Below, one piece after another: positions 3,731 through 45,760 of a stretch of DNA of 64,000 nucleotides. Numbering within the stretch: position 1 is the first letter of the stretch; the number at the start of each line of letters is the position of its first letter. A program made the position numbers and the translations under genes. The notes beneath the pieces were generated by a model, which was not told where the DNA came from, searched no databases, and worked only from the letters and a program-made list of their open reading frames with translations. This DNA is from Streptomyces longispororuber (GTDB lineage Bacteria > Actinomycetota > Actinomycetes > Streptomycetales > Streptomycetaceae), in assembly GCF_014656095.1 (NCBI RefSeq), contig NZ_BNBT01000001.1, positions 89,996 to 153,995 on the forward strand, in the 5' to 3' direction.

Positions 3731-4345
3731 ATGGTTACTTCGCGTTGGAAGACCGCTTCCGCTCAGGCGGTCTCCTCGCGCCGTCGTGGTCCTGTGCTGG
3801 AGCGCGCGATCCTGGAGTCCGCGCTGGAGCAGCTCAGTACGGTCGGCTGGAACGGTCTGACGATGGAGGGCGTGGCGGCGGGCGCCCAGACGGGCAAGGC
3901 CGCGGTGTACCGCCGCTGGCCCTCCAAGGAGGACCTCGTCGTCCACGCCCTGCAGGCCGGGCTGCCGAAGTTCGACGAGGTGCCGGACTGTGGCAGTGTC
4001 CGGGAGGACCTTCTCCGTCTGTGCCGCCAAATGCGCGCGGCCCTGACCTCCCGCCCCGGATACGCGCTGCTGGCGGTCCTTCACGAATGTGATGTCGAGA
4101 CCGCCGCGCGCTTCCACGGAGTGATCGTCGAGGGCGTCGTCGAACCGAGTGTGGAACTCATCCGGCAGGTGATGCGGCGCGGAATCGAGCGCGGAGAGGT
4201 GCGTTCCGGTGCGACGGACCAGTACGTCTGCGAGGTGATCCCCGCGATGATGATGTACCGCTCCAAAGTGTGCGGGAGCGAATGGTCGGACGAGGAATTC
4301 GTGGCACTCGTCGATCAGGTCATGGTTCCGCTGCTGCGCCCGTAA
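3731..4345 (+). CDS. TetR/AcrR family transcriptional repressor
   Basis: This protein has about 204 residues. Its N-terminal helix-turn-helix is visible as [32 protein letters not shown], where KAAVYRRW is the TetR recognition-helix signature. The rest is the helical ligand-binding and dimerisation domain. The ATG at 3731 is preferred because a GGAG (3719-3722) lies 8 bases upstream; an ATG at 3725 would sit too close, and a longer upstream frame has no ribosome-binding site. It is divergent from the MFS exporter and almost certainly represses it through the two palindromes between them. Confidence 0.9.
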
Positions 4346-4556
4346 GCCGGTTTCGACTGCCCAGGGTGGCGCCTCTCCGGCAGGGGAGGCAGGGGAGGCA
4401 GGGGGCAGGAGGGGCACCGTGCGCGCGGAAGGGGAATGTCCGCTCCCGGGAAGGGCGGCCGCGCGGCCCGTGGAGGTGCCGTGGCGCGAAGCCGTCCAAG
4501 CCTTGGCCAACCAGGGTGTCGCGAGTGGTCACCGGCGGCGTACGCTGTCAAACGCC

Positions 4557-5258
4557 ATGCCGTACGAAGCACCCACCCATACCGTCGAGCGCTCCTTGCG
4601 CGCCACCACCGGAGCGAAGATCATCGCCGGTGTCGACGAAGTCGGACGCGGAGCGTGGGCGGGCCCGGTCACCGTCTGCGCGGCGATCACGGGGCTGCGC
4701 AGGCCGCCCGCCGGCCTCACCGACTCCAAACTGATCAGCCCCAAGCGACGCACCGAGCTCGCCGCGGAGCTGGAGGGGTGGGTCACGTCACACGCCTTGG
4801 GGCACGCGTCGCCCGAGGAGATCGACGACATGGGCATGACGGCCGCCCTGCGGCTGGCCGCGGTCCGTGCCCTCGACGCGCTTCCGGTCCGGCCGGACGC
4901 GGTCATCCTCGACGGGAAGCACGACTACCTCGGCGCTCCCTGGCGGGTCCGTACGGTGATCAAAGGTGACCAGTCCTGCGTCGCTGTCGCGGCGGCGTCG
5001 GTCATCGCCAAGGTTCAGCGCGACAAAATGATGGCCGAACTGGGCATCGAACATGCAGACTTCGGTTTTGCGGCCAACGCCGGTTATCCGTCGCCGGTGC
5101 ACAAGGCCGCGCTGGCGGAACGGGGCCCCACCCCGTACCACCGGCTTTCGTGGGCGTATCTTGATGCGCTGCCCCAGTGGCGGCACCTCAAGAAAGCCCG
5201 CGCCTGGGCGGAGGGAAACGTTCCGGAAATCGAGGGCCAGCTCGGCTTTGAGTTCTGA
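4557..5258 (+). CDS. rnhB: Ribonuclease HII
   Basis: This 233-residue enzyme cuts the RNA strand of RNA-DNA hybrids and starts removal of misincorporated ribonucleotides. The N-terminal [15 protein letters not shown] motif holds the first catalytic Asp and Glu of the family. [12 protein letters not shown] follows, and [11 protein letters not shown] supplies a further acidic residue. The ATG at 4557 was chosen because family members begin about 20 residues before the GVDEVGRG motif; an open frame further upstream encodes Gly/Arg/Pro-rich sequence unlike the family. The gene stands alone, with a small conserved gene 77 bases downstream. Confidence 0.94.
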
Positions 5259-5335
5259 TGTTTTCCGCAGTTCCGGTCGCACTCATGTGCCACCCGCCGA
5301 CGCGTGTCGCATCGGCGTTTGATAGACAACAACGC

Positions 5336-6001
5336 ATGCCTCTCATTCCCGAGGAGCCTCAGATTCACGAGAGTGCCCAGGGTCCCCGCGCCACTCCGGC
5401 CACCGGCCGTACCGCGCCGACCCCCCGCCCCGTACCCGGTCCGCGTCCCGCGGCTCCGTCGCGGCCCGGCCGCCCGGGTCCCGTGCGGCCGACGCCGCCC
5501 GCGCAGCGCGCGACGCGTGAACCGGCTGTCAAGCCTGGGCCGCCCGCCCAGGCCGCCAAGCCGGGGCCGTCCGCCCCGGCCGCCCCGGAAGCCGCCGCCA
5601 ACGGTGCCGCGGTCCCGCAGATCCAGTTGATCCCGGCCTCCGCCGACGGCGCTCTCGACGCCGCCGAGGAAGCCGTCGACCTGCTGCTCGACTCGGGTCG
5701 CGCCCCGGGCGACGTCCTGGTGATCACCACAGGCGAGCCCCACCCGTGGTCCACGCACGAGCTGTCCTTCGGCGAGGACGCCTACTGGGCCCAGCACGAC
5801 GCCGGCGACGACGTGTTCTACGCCGACGCCGCCGCCCTGCCGCGCGCCGCGACCCGCCCTGTGGTCGTCGTCGCGCTGAACGGCGGCAGCGAGGAGACCG
5901 CGGTCACGGCCCTGCCCGCCGCGCTCAACCGGGCCGGCACCCTGCTGATCGTCTGCGGCGACCCGCAGCGGATCAACACCATGCTGGGCGCGGGCGTCTG
6001 A
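5336..6001 (+). CDS. Conserved actinobacterial protein of unknown function
   Basis: This protein has about 221 residues. The first ~85 are Pro/Ala/Arg-rich and look disordered. The rest is a compact alpha/beta domain with GDVLVITTGEPHPW, RPVVVVALNGGSEE and a C-terminal LLIVCGDPQRINTMLG. The alternating hydrophobic strands resemble a small Rossmann-like or helicase-associated domain, but no catalytic motif is visible. The start MPLIPEEP is the first plausible ATG. It follows rnhB closely and may be co-transcribed. I do not recognise a function. Confidence 0.75.
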   Translation: MPLIPEEPQIHESAQGPRATPATGRTAPTPRPVPGPRPAAPSRPGRPGPVRPTPPAQRATREPAVKPGPPAQAAKPGPSAPAAPEAAANGAAVPQIQLIPASADGALDAAEEAVDLLLDSGRAPGDVLVITTGEPHPWSTHELSFGEDAYWAQHDAGDDVFYADAAALPRAATRPVVVVALNGGSEETAVTALPAALNRAGTLLIVCGDPQRINTMLGAGV

Positions 6002-34600: not shown

Positions 34601-35773
34601 ATGCCGATCAATGGCTCCGCCACCGCCCCCGCAACCCCCGTCGAGGTCCCCCGCGGCCTCGCGGGTGTCGTCGTCACCGAGACCCGTCTCGGGGACGTGC
34701 GGGGGCGCGAGGGCTTCTACCACTACCGCCAGTACTCCGCCGTGGAGCTCGCCCGGACCCGCGGCTTCGAGGACGTCTGGTACCTGATGTTCCACGGCGA
34801 GCTTCCCGACCCCGCCCGGCGGGCCGCCTTCGCGAAGCAGACCGCGGCGCTGCGCCACCTGCCCGAGGACGTGCGCGCGGCCCTGCCCGCCATCGCCCGG
34901 GCCGGCACGCTCTCCGGGCCGCTCGCCGGACTGCGTACCGCGCTCTCGCTGTTCGGCGCCTCGAAGGGGTTCCGGCCGGTGTACGACATCGACGGCGACC
35001 GGCGCCGTGCCGACGCGCTCGCCGCGTCCGCCGTCGTGCCGACCCTGTTGACCGCGCTGTACCGGCTCGGCCAGGGGCTGGATCCGGTGGAGCCGCGCGA
35101 CGACCTGTCGTACGCCGCGAACTATCTCTACATGTTGACCGGTGCCGAGCCGGATGAAGACCGGGCCCGGGCCATTGAGCAGTACTTGATCTCGACCATT
35201 GACCACGGTTTCAACGCGTCAACCTTCACGGCCCGTGTCATTGCGTCGACGGGCGCGGACGTCGCGGCCTGCCTCGGCGGCGCCGTCGGCGCGCTCTCCG
35301 GCCCCCTGCACGGGGGTGCGCCCAGCCGGGCCCTGGACACCCTCGACGCGATCGGCACCCCCGACCGCATCGACGAGTGGATCCGGGAGCGGGTTCTCGC
35401 GGGCGAGCGGATCATGGGCTTCGGGCACCCCGTCTACCGCACGGAGGATCCGCGCTCCCGGATGCTGCGGGGTATCGCGCAGCGGTTCGGCGGGGAGCTG
35501 GTGGAGTTCGCGGTGGAGGTGGAGCGCCAGGTAGAGGCGATCCTGGCGGAGCTGAAGCCGGGGCGCGAGCTGCACACCAACGTCGAGTTCTACGCGGGCG
35601 TGGTCATGGAGCTGTGCGGGCTGCCGCGGGAGATGTTCACGCCGACGTTCGCCTCGGCGCGGGTGGTCGGCTGGAGCGCCAACATCCTGGAGCAGGCCGA
35701 GGACTCGAAGATCATCCGCCCGGCGGCCCGGTACGTGGGGGCGGCGGCGCCTGAGCCGGTGCCGGCCTCCTGA
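34601..35773 (+). CDS. Citrate synthase (citrate/2-methylcitrate synthase family)
   Basis: A 390-residue enzyme that should condense oxaloacetate with acetyl-CoA or propionyl-CoA. It begins with GLAGVVVTETRLGDVRGREGF and has the usual FEDVWYLMFHGELP segment. Active-site His residues are seen in LSGPLHGGAPSRALD and GFGHPVYRTEDPRSRML. At the position of the catalytic Asp it has Glu (HTNVEFYAGVVMELCGLP), a substitution I recall in actinobacterial relatives. A strong GGGAGGAAG ribosome-binding site precedes the ATG. It is divergent from the helix-turn-helix citrate synthase and likely co-regulated with it. Confidence 0.92.
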   Translation: MPINGSATAPATPVEVPRGLAGVVVTETRLGDVRGREGFYHYRQYSAVELARTRGFEDVWYLMFHGELPDPARRAAFAKQTAALRHLPEDVRAALPAIARAGTLSGPLAGLRTALSLFGASKGFRPVYDIDGDRRRADALAASAVVPTLLTALYRLGQGLDPVEPRDDLSYAANYLYMLTGAEPDEDRARAIEQYLISTIDHGFNASTFTARVIASTGADVAACLGGAVGALSGPLHGGAPSRALDTLDAIGTPDRIDEWIRERVLAGERIMGFGHPVYRTEDPRSRMLRGIAQRFGGELVEFAVEVERQVEAILAELKPGRELHTNVEFYAGVVMELCGLPREMFTPTFASARVVGWSANILEQAEDSKIIRPAARYVGAAAPEPVPAS

Positions 35774-35787
35774 GCCGAGAGGTGCGC

Positions 35788-36483
35788 CTACGCTCGGGGT
35801 GGTGTCGCGCCACCTCGACGCTCGGCCAGTGCCTGTTCGAAGAGCTGGAACACACGCCCTTCGGGACTGTCCGGGGACAGTTCCGCCTTGCGTGCCCGCG
35901 CGGCATCCCAATAACGCCGAAATGCGGTACTGCCGAGGAGGTTCTTCGCGTGGATCAGTAATTCCGCTTCGGTGTAGCTTCCCCAGCTAAAAGCGAGCAC
36001 GTAGTGGCTGAAGGTCAGGTTGGCGAAGAGGTTCTGCCGGAGTACGGGGGAGGGGGTGTCGGGGTAGTCGTTCCATACGTGCGCCAGGGAAGGGTCTTCC
36101 ATGGCCATTTGCGTCAGTTGGACGTGCAGCGCACGCATGTCGGCCTCGGCGCTGCGGCGCAGTTCGTCGTGGGTCGCTCCTAACTCCGCTCGCTGCAGGG
36201 CGAGTTCGCGGCGCTGTAGTTGCAGCTCCCGCTGCTGGAAAAGGAGGGTGGCGACGAGCAGAAGAAGGGCGATGCCCGAGAACACCGCGCTCACGCCCCC
36301 GAAGTAGTCGCCGAGTGAACTGCGCTTCTCTGCGACGTCGTGATCGCCGTTGACAGCCTCCACGCCGCTTATCAGCCAGCCGCTGATAACGATGGATGCT
36401 CCACCGACCAGCGTGATACCCGCCGCGGCGGCAGCCGCCCACGTGATCCAGCTCGCCGGGCGCCACCTGTGCTGACGTGTCAT
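35788..36483 (-). CDS. DUF6082 family membrane protein (copy A), contains a TTA codon
   Basis: This 231-residue protein has two N-terminal hydrophobic segments (WITWAAAAAAGITLVGGASIVISG and GGVSAVFSGIALLLLVATLLF), then a coiled-coil-like QQRELQLQRRELALQRAELGA. The soluble DUF6082 part follows, with DPSLAHVWNDYP, RQNLFANLTFSHYV and FRRYWDAARARKAEL. Codon 175 (35959-35961 on the plus strand, TAA) is TTA, which in Streptomyces needs the bldA tRNA and links expression to development. Local codon use is less GC-biased than in neighbours, a sign of transfer. The start at 36483 begins MTRQHRWRPAS. Its function is unknown. Confidence 0.8.
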   Translation of the reverse strand: MTRQHRWRPASWITWAAAAAAGITLVGGASIVISGWLISGVEAVNGDHDVAEKRSSLGDYFGGVSAVFSGIALLLLVATLLFQQRELQLQRRELALQRAELGATHDELRRSAEADMRALHVQLTQMAMEDPSLAHVWNDYPDTPSPVLRQNLFANLTFSHYVLAFSWGSYTEAELLIHAKNLLGSTAFRRYWDAARARKAELSPDSPEGRVFQLFEQALAERRGGATPPRA

Positions 36484-36614
36484 CAAGGCCCTCCCGAGTC
36501 CGCCGAATCCTTCCCGGGGTGCCGGACGGGAAACGACCCCCGCCCTTCGAGGGGCGGGGGTCGACCCGAGAGGCACCGCCGAACTCCATCGGGTGCCGCG
36601 GCGGGCGCCCACCG

Positions 36615-36699
36615 TCAGGCGTCGGGGATGTCGGCCTTGGCGTGGGTGAGGGTGCTGCGGCTGATGACCACGATGCGCTCGTAGTCGGCGCGTGCGGCA
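36615..36699. repeat. 85-bp direct repeat, copy 1
   Basis: The 3' ends of the two 78-residue genes are near-identical at DNA level: 36615-36699 and 37002-37086 differ at three positions. Offset is 387 bases. It marks a recent tandem duplication and could recombine to delete one copy. Confidence 0.9.
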
Positions 36700-36851
36700 C
36701 CGTTCGGCAGTGCGCTCTCGAGGTCTTCCGTCGCGTCCGTCCCGATGACGGCGAAGTTTCCGTCGATGAGTTCGAAGATGTCGGGGCAGGTGTCGCCAGC
36801 CAGGCACCCCCGGTCACGCGGGGGCAAGCCTATGCGGCGTCGTATGGACAC
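36615..36851 (-). CDS. 78-residue protein, paralogue A (tandem duplicate)
   Basis: This protein starts at a GTG (36851) chosen by alignment with its paralogue at 37002-37238; both are then exactly 78 residues. It contains a CPDIFEL motif, a short DGNFAVIGTD strand pair and a conserved end, RADYERIVVISRSTLT.AKADIPDA. No catalytic residue pattern is seen. It lies 131 bases upstream of the DUF6082 copy A gene on the same strand. Similar small proteins occur in other streptomycetes without assigned function, as I recall. An ATG further upstream (36887) would add 12 residues. Confidence 0.7.
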   Translation of the reverse strand: MSIRRRIGLPPRDRGCLAGDTCPDIFELIDGNFAVIGTDATEDLESALPNGAARADYERIVVISRSTLTHAKADIPDA

Positions 36852-37001
36852 ATTGCGGACGCTTCTGCGCCCGTGAGCAGCGGACATTCAGTGATCCTTG
36901 TGTGACGGGGAATGCGAGTGTCACCTTGCGAGGGGTCACCTACTGTGACGCGAGGTTCGTGTCGACACACTTGGGTTCGGAGTGACACGGTCTCGGAGGG
37001 C
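36852..37001. promoter_or_regulatory. GTGAC/GTCAC-rich spacer between the two 78-residue genes
   Basis: Within about 90 bases there are TGTGAC (36901), GTGTCACC (36918), GGTCACC (36934), TGTGACG (36944), the perfect palindrome GTGTCGACAC (36959-36968) and AGTGACAC (36981). This density of GTGAC and its complement suggests binding sites for a regulator of paralogue A, whose start lies immediately to the left. Confidence 0.4.
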
Positions 37002-37086
37002 TCAGGCGTCGGGGATGTCGGCCTTGGCGCGGGTGAGGGTACTGCGGCTGATGACAACGATGCGCTCGTAGTCGGCGCGTGCGGCA
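37002..37086. repeat. 85-bp direct repeat, copy 2
   Basis: Second copy of the repeat described at 36615-36699, covering the C-terminal codons of the other 78-residue gene. Confidence 0.9.
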
Positions 37087-37238
37087 TCGGCCGGCAGCAC
37101 GCTCTCGAGCTCTTGGGTCCTGTCCGTCCCGATGACGGCGAAGTCGCCGTCGTGCAGTTCGAAGATGTCCGGGCAACTCTGGCCCGTTGCGCTGCCCCGC
37201 TCGCGGGGAGAAGCGCCGATGCGGCGCGCGATCCTCAA
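37002..37238 (-). CDS. 78-residue protein, paralogue B
   Basis: MRIARRIGASPRERG begins this 78-residue protein, which shares with paralogue A the CPDIFEL motif, the DGDFAVIGTD hairpin and the last ~27 residues almost without change. Divergence is concentrated in the N-terminal 20 residues and the middle. It lies 131 bases after the stop of the DUF6082 copy B gene on the same strand, the same spacing as between paralogue A and DUF6082 copy A. This repeated spacing suggests that the four genes arose as a duplicated cassette. Its function is unknown. Confidence 0.78.
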   Translation of the reverse strand: MRIARRIGASPRERGSATGQSCPDIFELHDGDFAVIGTDRTQELESVLPADAARADYERIVVISRSTLTRAKADIPDA

Positions 37239-37369
37239 AGGGGTACCGGTCCTTGCTGGGTGGTTCTGGATGATCAGGGCGGAGGACAGGTTAGTCGCTC
37301 ACCGCTGTCGCTCCGGCTCCAACCTGTGCCGACATGCCCACCAGACGTGCCCCCCGATGACCGTTGGCC

Positions 37370-37873
37370 CTACTGGGGGGAGGACGGGTTGCCCACGACC
37401 CACCACTCTTCCGTGTCGGCCTCCGCCAGATCGCGGGCCAGACGATCCGTCATCCGGCCCACCTGCGCTTCCTTGGACGAGTCGTGCAGGCTTGCGCGGT
37501 GGTGTCGCGTTGCTTCCCAGTACTCCCGGAACACCTCGTTCTGGCACATGATGCGGAGGTGCCCGTAGAGCTCCTCAATGGTCATGGCACCGGTGCGCAG
37601 CGCGTGGACAGCATTGATGTACAGCGCGTTGGCGAAGAGGAACTGCCGCTGCTTCTCCAGGGGCACGTCCTCGTCGTAGGTGTCCAGTACGACGGTCAAG
37701 GCGGGGTCGTCCATGGCCTTGCACAGCAGGTCGAAGTGGAGCCGGTGCTGTTCTGTGAGCGCGGTCTGCCTGCGCTGGTGCGCCGCACGTGCGACGAAGG
37801 TCGCGATCGTCAAGGCGAGTCCGGCGGCCATGGCCGGGCCCGCACCTCGTATCCCGTAGTTCTGTGTGGTCAT
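37370..37873 (-). CDS. DUF6082 family protein (copy B)
   Basis: This 167-residue protein begins MTTQNYGIRGAGPAMAAGLALTIATFVARAAHQRR, a single N-terminal membrane helix. The DUF6082 body follows, with LLCKAMDDPALTVVLDTYDEDVP, KQRQFLFANALYINAVHALR and CQNEVFREYWEATRHHRASL. These match copy A (NLFANLTFSHYV and FRRYWDAARARKA) and show that both are one family, though diverged. It is the first gene of the four-gene leftward cluster. No TTA codon was seen here. Its function is unknown. Confidence 0.82.
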   Translation of the reverse strand: MTTQNYGIRGAGPAMAAGLALTIATFVARAAHQRRQTALTEQHRLHFDLLCKAMDDPALTVVLDTYDEDVPLEKQRQFLFANALYINAVHALRTGAMTIEELYGHLRIMCQNEVFREYWEATRHHRASLHDSSKEAQVGRMTDRLARDLAEADTEEWWVVGNPSSPQ

Positions 37874-38227
37874 GTCAATCCCCGAATCAGGCGACCGTCC
37901 GCCGGTCTTCGGGCGCGGGGCGGCGGGGTGCGGACCGGCGAGCGATGGGCGACGCTTGCCGTCTCCCAGAGTGCCGAGCGGCTCTGATCGGCCGGGAGGC
38001 GGAGAGGAGGCGCACGGAAGCACGGCGGGCAGCCGTACTCACACATCCCTGCGCCGTGTCCAGGATGTGCCCCGCCGGTGCCGCGCGGAACCGTTCGCCA
38101 ACCGGAACGTCTACGCGCACATATCCTTGAGCGATGTTCGGATGCCGTACATGCTTGTCGCTCACGCGTGGTAGGCGTTCCGAGCGACTTGATACGCCTT
38201 GATGTGTGTTGATGCGAGGGGCCACAC

Positions 38228-39613
38228 GTGAGTCAGCAGCAGATCCCGGTCATCGTCCTCACGGGATTTCTGGGATCCGGCAAGACGACCCTGTTGAATC
38301 ATCTGTTGCACCGCAGCGGAGGCAGCCGGATCGGCGCCATCGTCAACGACTTCGGCTCCATCGAGATCGACGCCATGGCCGTCGCCGGGCAGCTCGGCGA
38401 CTCCACCGTGTCCCTCGGCAACGGATGCCTGTGCTGTGCGGTGGACGCCGGCGAACTCGACGTCTACCTGGAGCGGCTCGCGCGGCCGTCCGCACGCATC
38501 GACGTCATCGTCATCGAGGCGAGCGGGCTCGCGGAGCCGCAGGAACTCGTCCGGATGGTGCTGGCCAGTGAGAACCCGGGCATCGTGTACGGGGGCCTGG
38601 TGCAGGTCGTGGACGCGGCCGAGTTCGACGCCACCAGGCAGCGCCACCCCGAGGTGGACCGGCACCTGAGGATCGCGGACCTCGTCGTCGTCAACAAGGT
38701 GGACCGGGTGCCGGGGCCGCAGCGCGACCGCGTCCTGGCCGAGGTCCGCCGCCACACCGATCGGGCCGCCGTCGTCGCCGCCTCGTACGGACGCGTGGAC
38801 GTGGAGCTCGTCCTCGACCGCAAGCCCGTGGGGGAGCGCGTCGGGCAGCTCTCCTTCGACGACCTGCACGACCATGGCGAGGACCTGCACGACCACGGCG
38901 AGACACCGGCCGCGGAGGGCGGCCGCCAGGAGGGCCCGGCCGCCGACGGGGCCGACGGCGCCTGCTCCTGCGGCGACCCCGACCACGCCCACCTGCACGC
39001 GGGCTACGAGAGCGTCGCCTTCACCTCGGAGGCGCCGCTGAACCCGCGCCGCCTCATGGCCTTCCTCGACAGCAGGCCCGAAGGGCTCTACCGCATCAAG
39101 GGGTACGTCGACTTCGGCGCCGCCGATGCCCGCAACCGCTACGGCGTGCACTCCGTGGGGCGGTTCCTGCGCTTCTATCCCGAGCCGTGGGCGCCCGGCG
39201 AGAAGCGGCTGACACAGCTCGTCCTGATCGGCTCCGGCATCGACGTACCGGCGCTGCACGCGCAGTTGACGTTGTGCCGGGAGAACGAGGAGGACGCCCC
39301 GGCCACCGACGAGTTCGGCATGTGGGGCGTCCTGCGCTTCGTACAGGAGCCGGCGGGGGAGGAGGCGCCGGGAGCCGGGGCCGACGGTCCGGCCGAGGAC
39401 GAGGCCGAGACCGGGGACGCGGCCGAGACCGCGGCCGGCGCGGGCTCGGGCCTCGGGCCGGACGGCGGACGGGCCTCCGCCCACGCGCTCGACCCGGGCC
39501 GCGGGGCCTACGACGAGCCCGAGCCCGACCCCGACCCCGACCTCGACTTCGGCCCCAGCACCGGGCCCGGGCCGGACGAGGACCCGGAGCCCGGTACCGG
39601 ACTCGGCGGCTGA
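38228..39613 (+). CDS. COG0523/CobW family GTPase, putative metallochaperone
   Basis: This 461-residue protein starts at a GTG. The G1 motif is TGFLGSGKTTLLNHLL, the family metal motif GNGCLCC (CxCC) follows at about residue 65, and NKVD provides base recognition. The middle has a His/Asp/Glu-rich stretch (FDDLHDHGEDLHDHGE) and CSCGDPDHAHLHAG, both suited to metal binding. The C-terminal CobW domain ends near AQLTLC. The last ~85 residues are acidic Glu/Asp/Pro/Gly-rich repeats. Such proteins deliver zinc or other metals using GTP. No Zur-like box was recognised upstream. Its stop is one base from the convergent parC stop. Confidence 0.9.
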   Translation: MSQQQIPVIVLTGFLGSGKTTLLNHLLHRSGGSRIGAIVNDFGSIEIDAMAVAGQLGDSTVSLGNGCLCCAVDAGELDVYLERLARPSARIDVIVIEASGLAEPQELVRMVLASENPGIVYGGLVQVVDAAEFDATRQRHPEVDRHLRIADLVVVNKVDRVPGPQRDRVLAEVRRHTDRAAVVAASYGRVDVELVLDRKPVGERVGQLSFDDLHDHGEDLHDHGETPAAEGGRQEGPAADGADGACSCGDPDHAHLHAGYESVAFTSEAPLNPRRLMAFLDSRPEGLYRIKGYVDFGAADARNRYGVHSVGRFLRFYPEPWAPGEKRLTQLVLIGSGIDVPALHAQLTLCRENEEDAPATDEFGMWGVLRFVQEPAGEEAPGAGADGPAEDEAETGDAAETAAGAGSGLGPDGGRASAHALDPGRGAYDEPEPDPDPDLDFGPSTGPGPDEDPEPGTGLGG

Positions 39614-45318: not shown

Positions 45319-45760
45319 TCGCCCACCGGCCGCTCCGGCTGCGAAAGCTACGAGGGCTGCGACGGCAGGGGCGGAACGGCAGGAACGCCGCGTGACGCAA
45401 CGGACCCCGGAGGCCCATGATGCCTCCGGGGTCCCGCATGTCGCCATATGCCCGAATTGGCATGGAGGTTGGCTGTCTGCCGTGTGGCGTGCGCTACAAA
45501 AGGCGGGATCCGTTTGTCGATTGAAAGAAGAGGCGTTTAGCGTCAATCCGGCTGTCCGTCAGGCAGTACGCCGCACCCGCGGCGCCGGACAGTCATCGCC
45601 GAGTCCCCGTACGGCGCGAGCCAGGGGAGCCGGGGACCCACACGTCCCTGGGGTGAATCGGACCCCCCGCCGCCAGTCGGGGAGCCCGTAGGAGACCTTC
45701 CTGCTCCGAACCCGTCAGCTAACCCGGTAGGCGAGAAGGAAGGAAAGGACCAGCCGCTTC
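45319..45760. other. 442-bp leader region of the M23 peptidase gene
   Basis: No protein gene is supported. It starts with a run after the M16 operon stop, becomes AT-richer at 45450-45545 (probable promoter, with CTACAAAAGGCGGG and GTTTGTCGATTG), and then holds the ydaO-type riboswitch ending just before the ribosome-binding site. Confidence 0.65.
45594..45742 (+). ncRNA. ydaO-yuaA (cyclic di-AMP) riboswitch
   Basis: The conserved core of this riboswitch class is present in order: CGCCGAGTCC (from 45598), GGGGAGCCGGGGACCCA (45624-45640), GGGGTGAATC (45650-45659), GGGGAGCCCGTAGGAGACC (45679-45697), and CCGAACCCGTCAGCT followed directly by AACCCGGTAGGC (45706-45732). The element ends in GAGAAGGAAGGAAAGG, which includes the ribosome-binding site of the M23 gene at 45761. 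In this class cyclic di-AMP binding turns off expression of cell-wall hydrolase genes. Confidence 0.93.

Follow-up and report, generated by a model that had tools for sequence, protein, structure and literature searches.

A DUF6082 membrane protein, a 78-residue protein and a conserved non-coding leader occur together at preferred chromosomal sites in Streptomyces

The window analysed here, 64,000 nucleotides (nt) of contig NZ_BNBT01000001.1 from the 9.08-Mb genome of Streptomyces longispororuber, carries four minus-strand genes transcribed in the order DUF6082-A, small-A, small-B and DUF6082-B, between plus-strand genes for citrate synthase and a CobW-type GTPase (Table 1). A first-pass annotation of the DNA had described these genes, and they are real: all lie on the minus strand, and both large proteins belong to DUF6082 by Pfam. 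It overlooked a conserved leader directly upstream of DUF6082-A and a strong hairpin between small-B and DUF6082-B. By comparison among genomes, the DUF6082 protein, the small protein and the leader stand together in most cases, with two chromosomal sites preferred, and divergence in one protein goes along with divergence in the other. We tentatively read the three parts as a Streptomyces cassette in which a soluble small protein would set a membrane effector or adaptor, DUF6082, and the leader would control the output; we put the chance of this reading a little short of even. Binding between the proteins, the direction of control and a role in late hyphae are what we infer.

Profile matches for the small protein and for DUF6082 (PF19560) were collected from 150 genomes of the window's genus (labels G). 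The small protein gave 99 matches in 62 genomes and PF19560 gave 113 matches in 69. A PF19560 match lay within 3 kb of 69 of the 99 small-protein matches, compared with 0.13 expected for all 99 under uniform placement; the fraction was 65/67 among strong matches (at least 62 bits) and 4/32 among the others. The pair was present in 47 of the 150 genomes, about a third of the Streptomyces sampled. DUF6082 came first in 53 of the 69 pairs and the small gene in seven, both in tandem, and the remaining nine pairs were convergent. A second collection consisted of 80 named loci (L147-L226), the best of at least 576 relatives. In every one, DUF6082 was matched no farther than 3 kb from the small gene; 76 had CobW, and four had KorA instead. 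The small gene pointed toward DUF6082 in six of them (L177, L192, L197, L203, L205 and L214), with the orientation of DUF6082 to CobW/parC kept. The first-pass annotation had named such co-occurrence as the check on its proposed pairing, and it was found in both collections; judged by these comparisons, the small protein is a true partner of DUF6082, and the two are not a chance cluster.

Joint descent was also observed. Distances between small proteins correlated with those between DUF6082 proteins (r = 0.74, 72 pairs), and the partial correlation was 0.73 after CobW distance had been removed (67 pairs; the largest of 999 permutations reached 0.19). Small-protein and CobW distances correlated at only r = 0.13. 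Because the partners' distances correlate and those of the small protein and CobW barely do, the module descends as one unit and in part independently of its neighbour. The surroundings support the earlier annotation's view of the cluster as an accessory set inserted between core genes. A CobW match was present in 141 of the 150 genomes. In 20 CobW loci taken from genomes that lack the module here, no small-protein or DUF6082 match was found; citrate synthase stood beside CobW in 15, as a fragment only in one, and not at all in four. Across a phylum-wide sample of 396 genomes, seven carried the small family and nine PF19560, all but one weak match each lying in the window's genus. A prophage or mobile origin was considered and rejected: no phage match was found for DUF6082-A or small-B, and each gene occurred in two plasmid records among 72,556.

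The leader was more conserved than the genes behind it. Over 67 loci, mean pairwise identity with gaps counted was 84% for the leader; the small gene reached 77%, the next 150 nt upstream of the leader 66%, DUF6082 58% and the 150 nt preceding the small gene 27%. Of 75 sequences compared, among them that of the window, 73 had the leader, and it accompanies DUF6082 to the second chromosomal site. A DNA search of the 150 genomes gave 106 leader matches, 47 of them strong (E ≤ 1.9e-13) and 59 weaker. Of the strong ones, 46 had a DUF6082 match within 300 nt, which in G009 is a sub-threshold fragment, and the sole exception, in G124, was a partial leader kept by CobW. A covariance model of the leader, for which some of these genomes had supplied part of the sequences, matched 16 times in a set of 41 genomes, every time within 150 nt of a DUF6082 match, and once in the window's own genome. 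BLAST detected no leader in the 20 CobW loci without the module, in 20 other DUF6082 loci or in 40 loci with DUF6879 cassettes; in the other DUF6082 loci tested, the covariance model gave one weak match (L108, E 0.038).

Some loci retain parts of the arrangement. In G009 (locus L280), an intact leader (152.7 bits) precedes a short, degraded DUF6082 gene, and the genome has no small-protein match. In L219, a transposase gene pair (positions 4049-5607; IS110-like by resemblance) follows a disrupted leader; the tail-type DUF6082, described below, is lost, and the small gene and another DUF6082 are kept.

The leader was also considered as coding sequence. Translation in the DUF6082 frame was rejected, as 1- and 2-nt insertions and deletions are common and an in-frame stop lies 4-5 codons before the start in 14 of 73 sequences. 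At the start of the leader stands a conserved GTG, which is mostly ATG at the second site, and codons for R(L/R/P)LSAS come next (window 37871-38020, minus strand). An upstream frame that would start with (GTG/ATG)CGC and encode MR(L/R/P)LSAS was not supported: the third codon position was the least variable one (130 pattern matches, some of them false), and the start is GCG in L147, L189, L221 and L225.

We favour, on mixed evidence from the alignments, a leader that acts as a folded RNA. The candidate hairpin P3 had 86.6% of cells paired in an alignment of 26 mixed sequences and a covariation score of 0.178 compared with 0.129 in shuffled alignments. Paired cells, cells changed on both sides and the covariation score exceeded the shuffles (0, 2 and 0 of 500 as high). 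A structure obtained with RNAalifold from 73 first-site sequences was above all 500 shuffles in all five measures, with seven two-sided-change pairs versus 1.4; this structure was derived from the same 73-sequence alignment, shares columns with P3 and partly excludes it. No Rfam family matched the leader at gathering score, and none matched up to E 5 in 37800-38250. The alternative is a regulatory region at the DNA level, a promoter with operators that may also serve the divergent CobW gene; we regard this alternative as quite possible, though somewhat below an even chance. It fits the folding energy of the leader, which was no better than shuffled (z 0.94 and -0.34), and the two P3 measures that stayed within the shuffles in the mixed alignment, two-sided-change pairs and further pair types (reached by 366 and 310 of the 500 shuffles), so that P3 stood out in three of five measures only. 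It also fits the 5' strand CCGCCTCC, which is nearly fixed while the proposed partner strand varies. A DNA-level region is harder to reconcile with a leader that extends to the DUF6082 start codon, that BLAST does not find in the 20 CobW loci without the module and that moves with DUF6082 to the second site, or with the RNAalifold result, subject to its shared alignment and columns.

The two DUF6082 proteins of the window are of different types. Both exceeded the curated PF19560 cut-off of 26.7 bits, and the FLFAN/NLFAN and FREYW/FRRYW motifs reported by the first-pass annotation are present in both. Its N-terminal membrane helices were predicted by hydropathy in both proteins as well, although not alike: two in DUF6082-B (residues 16-34 and 64-82) and a single weaker one in DUF6082-A (10-28). 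The proteins are 37% identical over 104 amino acids (aa), and the C-terminal EWWVVG tail is present in DUF6082-A and missing from DUF6082-B. Among 145 distinct DUF6082 sequences, two of which were too close to a record end to be scored, the tail was found in 109 of the 126 that have a small gene no more than 1.5 kb away and in 2 of the 17 that do not; in one of these two, L215, a small gene lies at 2.9 kb. From the tail split and the 37% identity, rather than from a DUF6082 tree, DUF6082-A and DUF6082-B would be old, distinct types. The duplicated two-gene module that the earlier annotation had proposed does not describe this arrangement: the two DUF6082 proteins differ in identity, tail and helix number, and the small gene alone is tandemly copied. 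The order DUF6082, small, small, DUF6082 recurs in L178 and in G068 (L100), and DUF6082, small, DUF6082 is found in G014 and G123.

The structure model of DUF6082-A had a mean predicted local distance difference test (pLDDT) score of 84.1. Its best VIA-align rows reached Z 6.2, with the RsbR N-domain at 5.7, a range that the tool calls common for helical models. DUF6082-B matched a ZorA/MotA-ExbB profile at 14.3 bits (E 0.0024) over residues 66-143 only, which cover its helix and coiled-coil region, and its PHROGs matches (3.8e-8 and 2.2e-4) were limited to the same region.

The small proteins share 58 of 78 residues (74%), with the nearly identical C-terminus that had been noted earlier. Both follow the pattern of the family alignments, about 78 aa with RR-G ... 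G ... CPD(I/L/V)(F/W)(E/Q)L--G-(F/V/I)AVIG ... LP ... ER(I/L)V(V/I)I, and neither matched Pfam, NCBIfam, PADLOC or PHROGs. The model of the small protein had a pLDDT of 72.8 and a best VIA-align Z of 3.7. The genes form a 225-nt direct repeat (83%), and their differences are unevenly spread: 6 of 90 positions differ in the last 30 codons and 41 of 144 in the first 48 (Fisher p 4e-5), and at synonymous sites alone the same split gave p 0.004, with a synonymous divergence (dS) of 0.09 versus 0.67; the split into codons 1-48 and 49-78 was picked after the alignment had been viewed. The 3' ends were probably evened out by local gene conversion, as this pattern suggests. In a small-protein tree with too few columns to resolve most forks, the nearest relative of small-B was small-A (75%), and that of small-A was a protein of another species (83%). 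Since small-A is nearest to another species' protein, either the copying was not very recent or the 3' end has been converted.

Two further observations concern the small genes. In 75 distinct stretches upstream of them (L147-L226), AGGACCG occurred in 36 and CAGTAAC in 16, compared with 1.1 and 0.3 in shuffles; these counts ignore shared ancestry, and the motifs are perhaps a ribosome site before a TTG start and a promoter element, respectively. The small protein of L176, named Kitasatospora aureofaciens NRRL B-2183, is identical to that of Streptomyces hyderabadensis, and the record name may be wrong.

A toxin-antitoxin-like pair, in which DUF6082 would be a membrane toxin neutralised by the small protein, is an unlikely explanation in our judgement. 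The patchy presence of the pair suits it, as do a broken DUF6082 beside an intact small gene in L213, L218, G097 and G141 (the reverse was not counted systematically) and the ratio of nonsynonymous to synonymous substitution (dN/dS), with a median of 0.39 in fast-evolving DUF6082 versus 0.13 in the slow small protein. The genes, however, do not have the close spacing expected of co-transcribed type II genes: the gap is 131 nt in the window and mostly 49-422 nt elsewhere, and the genes converge in the six named loci given above. The fixed chromosomal site in most named loci, the scarcity of plasmid records and the lack of phage matches also argue against a toxin-antitoxin pair, and so does a plasmid (L085) that carries a tail-type DUF6082 without a small match.

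The small-protein family also links the window to other cassettes. At 20 sister loci (L063-L082), distant small proteins are 42-50% identical to small-B. In 16 of these, the gene next after the small one belongs to a single cluster, the two members tested being DUF6879 (PF21806), and one of two NB-ARC/TPR (NLR-like) ATPase clusters is represented in 17 (10 + 7), with NB-ARC matches in the three members tested. On a Kitasatospora cathayae plasmid (L083, 4968-8274), the small gene stands directly before a 1014-aa DUF6879-NB-ARC/TPR ATPase fusion. In L123 and L124, the order is small gene, DUF6879 (by cluster) and DUF6082 (by Pfam), and the last two genes overlap, by 4 nt in L123. The sister loci and the window are alike in the small family, in multi-gene partner logic, in being streptomycete and in patchy presence. 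They differ in that the window has a DUF6082 membrane protein and no DUF6879 or ATPase, and in that BLAST did not find the leader in L063-L082. Neither DUF6879 nor an NB-ARC/TPR ATPase matched the four window proteins or six flanking genes, and neither was found in the 80 named loci at E 1e-15 (for DUF6879, with a custom profile). DUF6879 is itself common, being present in 124 of the 150 genomes. As a separate observation, the NB-ARC/TPR proteins of L064 (2019-4418), L065 (2045-4660) and L080 (5592-8336) have an N-terminal motif like VQA(R/G)(D/S)(V/I)(R/S)GG(V/L)H(F/L)H.

Another 20 loci were fetched for DUF6879 (L227-L246). A CPT-type small protein was recognised by pattern in 13, and the five neighbours tested were all XRE/DUF5753 regulators. 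CPT-type proteins matched the small family remotely in one comparison (hhalign probability 76.5, E 2.2e-5), and the output gene of these cassettes is a helix-turn-helix regulator in the five cases tested, not a membrane protein. By these gene orders, DUF6082 occupies the place that a STAND ATPase or a regulator has in related cassettes, with L123 and L124 as two genomes in which it takes the ATPase position. Accessible excerpts of published work describe BldB/WhiJ/AbaA (PMC10294661) and XRE-DUF397 pairs (PMC6262351, PMC10364602) as cassettes of paralogous small proteins with effects on development or antibiotic production in Streptomyces. Unlike those, the four window proteins and six flanking genes had no DUF397 or XRE Pfam match, and the only helix-turn-helix there lies within a citrate synthase-like gene. 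The conflict systems of multicellular bacteria that depend on nucleoside triphosphates, Streptomyces included, consist of STAND ATPases with partner genes, as outlined in the available part of one study (PMC7159879); in contrast, the window cluster has no such ATPase. A literature search on DUF6082 and DUF6879, with most subscription journals outside its reach, found no paper.

Published data from S. coelicolor bear on when the cassette is expressed. The order in S. violaceorubidus (L168) is parC, CobW, DUF6082, small gene and citrate synthase genes. In S. coelicolor, parC is SCO5836 (PMC3905888) and two citrate synthases are SCO5831 and SCO5832 (PMC12323332), as given in excerpts of these papers, which leaves three numbers, SCO5833 to SCO5835, for CobW, DUF6082 and the small protein. 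SCO5834, a membrane-spanning hypothetical protein, changed by log2 +1.5, +3.1 and +3.2 in the second multinucleated mycelium at 24, 48 and 72 h compared with young mycelium, according to the accessible part of an array study (PMC3610822), and by its position it is probably DUF6082. The cassette could then be a developmental or envelope regulator without a conflict role, its leader timing expression in late hyphae, which we consider rather unlikely but worth weighing. The more than 8-fold rise of SCO5834 in late mycelium in that partly available study speaks for it, as do the conserved site beside core genes and the strong conservation of the leader. On the other side, members of the small family also stand beside NB-ARC ATPases, and since no more than 47 of the 150 genomes have the pair, sporulation in general does not need it.

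In the cassette that we propose, the small protein would bind the cytosolic helical domain of DUF6082 or its EWWVVG tail, a putative contact, and binding would set the activity of DUF6082 at the membrane, with the leader setting the amount of DUF6082 made. The small protein would be the regulatory or sensing subunit of a switch, as its relatives may be beside DUF6879 and NB-ARC/TPR ATPases, and late, sporulating hyphae would use the resulting output, a membrane effector or adaptor. In the window, the cassette comes with a duplicated small gene and with a second-type DUF6082 (B) behind a terminator-like hairpin. A bolder version is improbable in our view: the leader as an undescribed class of structured RNA with control over a membrane executor of sporulating hyphae, and DUF6082 with the small protein as an NLR-like cassette in which DUF6082 has replaced the STAND ATPase, forming a fixed-site switch for hyphal self-protection.

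Several results weigh against the proposed cassette. Besides the folding energy and the two P3 measures given above, only 6 of the 59 weaker leader matches lay by a DUF6082 match; the other 53 (22-68 nt long) were elsewhere and mostly unexamined. Several DUF6082 proteins that adjoin a small gene have no tail, and no small match lies within 5 kb of the tailed plasmid DUF6082 in L085 (another plasmid locus, L086, stands at a record end and was not counted). Foldseek found no solved structure at E 0.001 for the models of DUF6082-A or the small protein. The convergent genes in 6 of 80 loci mean that a shared transcript is not required, the choice of best relatives makes the named loci favour the commonest site, and SCO5834 was equated with DUF6082 by gene order only.

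The layout of the locus is summarised in Table 1. The first-pass annotation had noted two equal spacings of 131 nt. The length is correct for both; the ends had been swapped, transcription running from A to B, and the gaps lie between the DUF6082-A stop and the small-A start and between the small-B stop and the DUF6082-B start. In the 150 genomes, the end-to-end distance of paired matches was 49-422 nt, plus five at 783-1145 (match ends, not gene ends). Because these distances vary so widely, the equality looks like chance, and it was rejected as a signature. DUF6082-B is probably a transcription unit separate from the other genes, since it sits behind the strong hairpin. A single four-gene unit is not supported, given this hairpin, a full-size second DUF6082 reading frame in only 2 of 80 named loci and the six loci in which the small gene faces DUF6082. 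A consensus scan of 35600-38300 found no promoter-like site and one terminator-like site, inside DUF6082-B; it omitted the hairpin because the hairpin tail has few T. Hairpins 3' of small genes were rejected as a general rule (median -21.7 versus -20.6 kcal/mol for controls). Elsewhere in the window, a cyclic di-AMP riboswitch (RF00379) at 45587-45747 on the plus strand (79.7 bits) was the sole Rfam match at gathering score.

Table 1. Features of the DUF6082/small-protein locus, in window coordinates
Feature	Position	Strand	Description
DUF6082-A	37370..37873	-	167 aa, one predicted helix, helical domain, EWWVVG tail; PF19560 E 1.8e-55, 187.4 bits
small-A	37002..37238	-	78 aa, TTG start; no predicted membrane helix; in family alignment
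small-B	36615..36851	-	78 aa, GTG start; tandem copy of small-A
DUF6082-B	35788..36483	-	231 aa, coiled coil, two predicted helices; lacks the EWWVVG tail; PF19560 E 1.1e-36, 126.4 bits
Conserved non-coding leader	37874..38018	-	145 nt, directly upstream of DUF6082-A
Candidate hairpin P3, 5' arm	37933..37945	-	13-pair helix, 26-sequence alignment
Candidate hairpin P3, 3' arm	37895..37907	-	13-pair helix, 26-sequence alignment
Terminator-like hairpin between small-B and DUF6082-B	36534..36563	-	Inverted repeat; -35.6 kcal/mol (51-nt fold)
Citrate synthase gene (flank)	34601..35773	+	PF00285 E 1.4e-110
CobW-type GTPase gene (flank), divergent from DUF6082-A	38228..39613	+	PF02492 E 7.2e-46

These comparisons bring a small protein without annotation and two uncharacterised protein families together as a defined cassette with testable parts. 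The cassette is tied to NLR-like ATPase loci through the common small-protein family, and one experiment on the small protein would therefore inform both systems. That kinship and the probable late-mycelium expression bear on the signalling, immunity or developmental role suggested for the cluster. The leader, more conserved than the genes behind it, offers a clear target for transcript mapping in the model organism, where published array data, as far as the available part goes, suggest a role in late mycelium.

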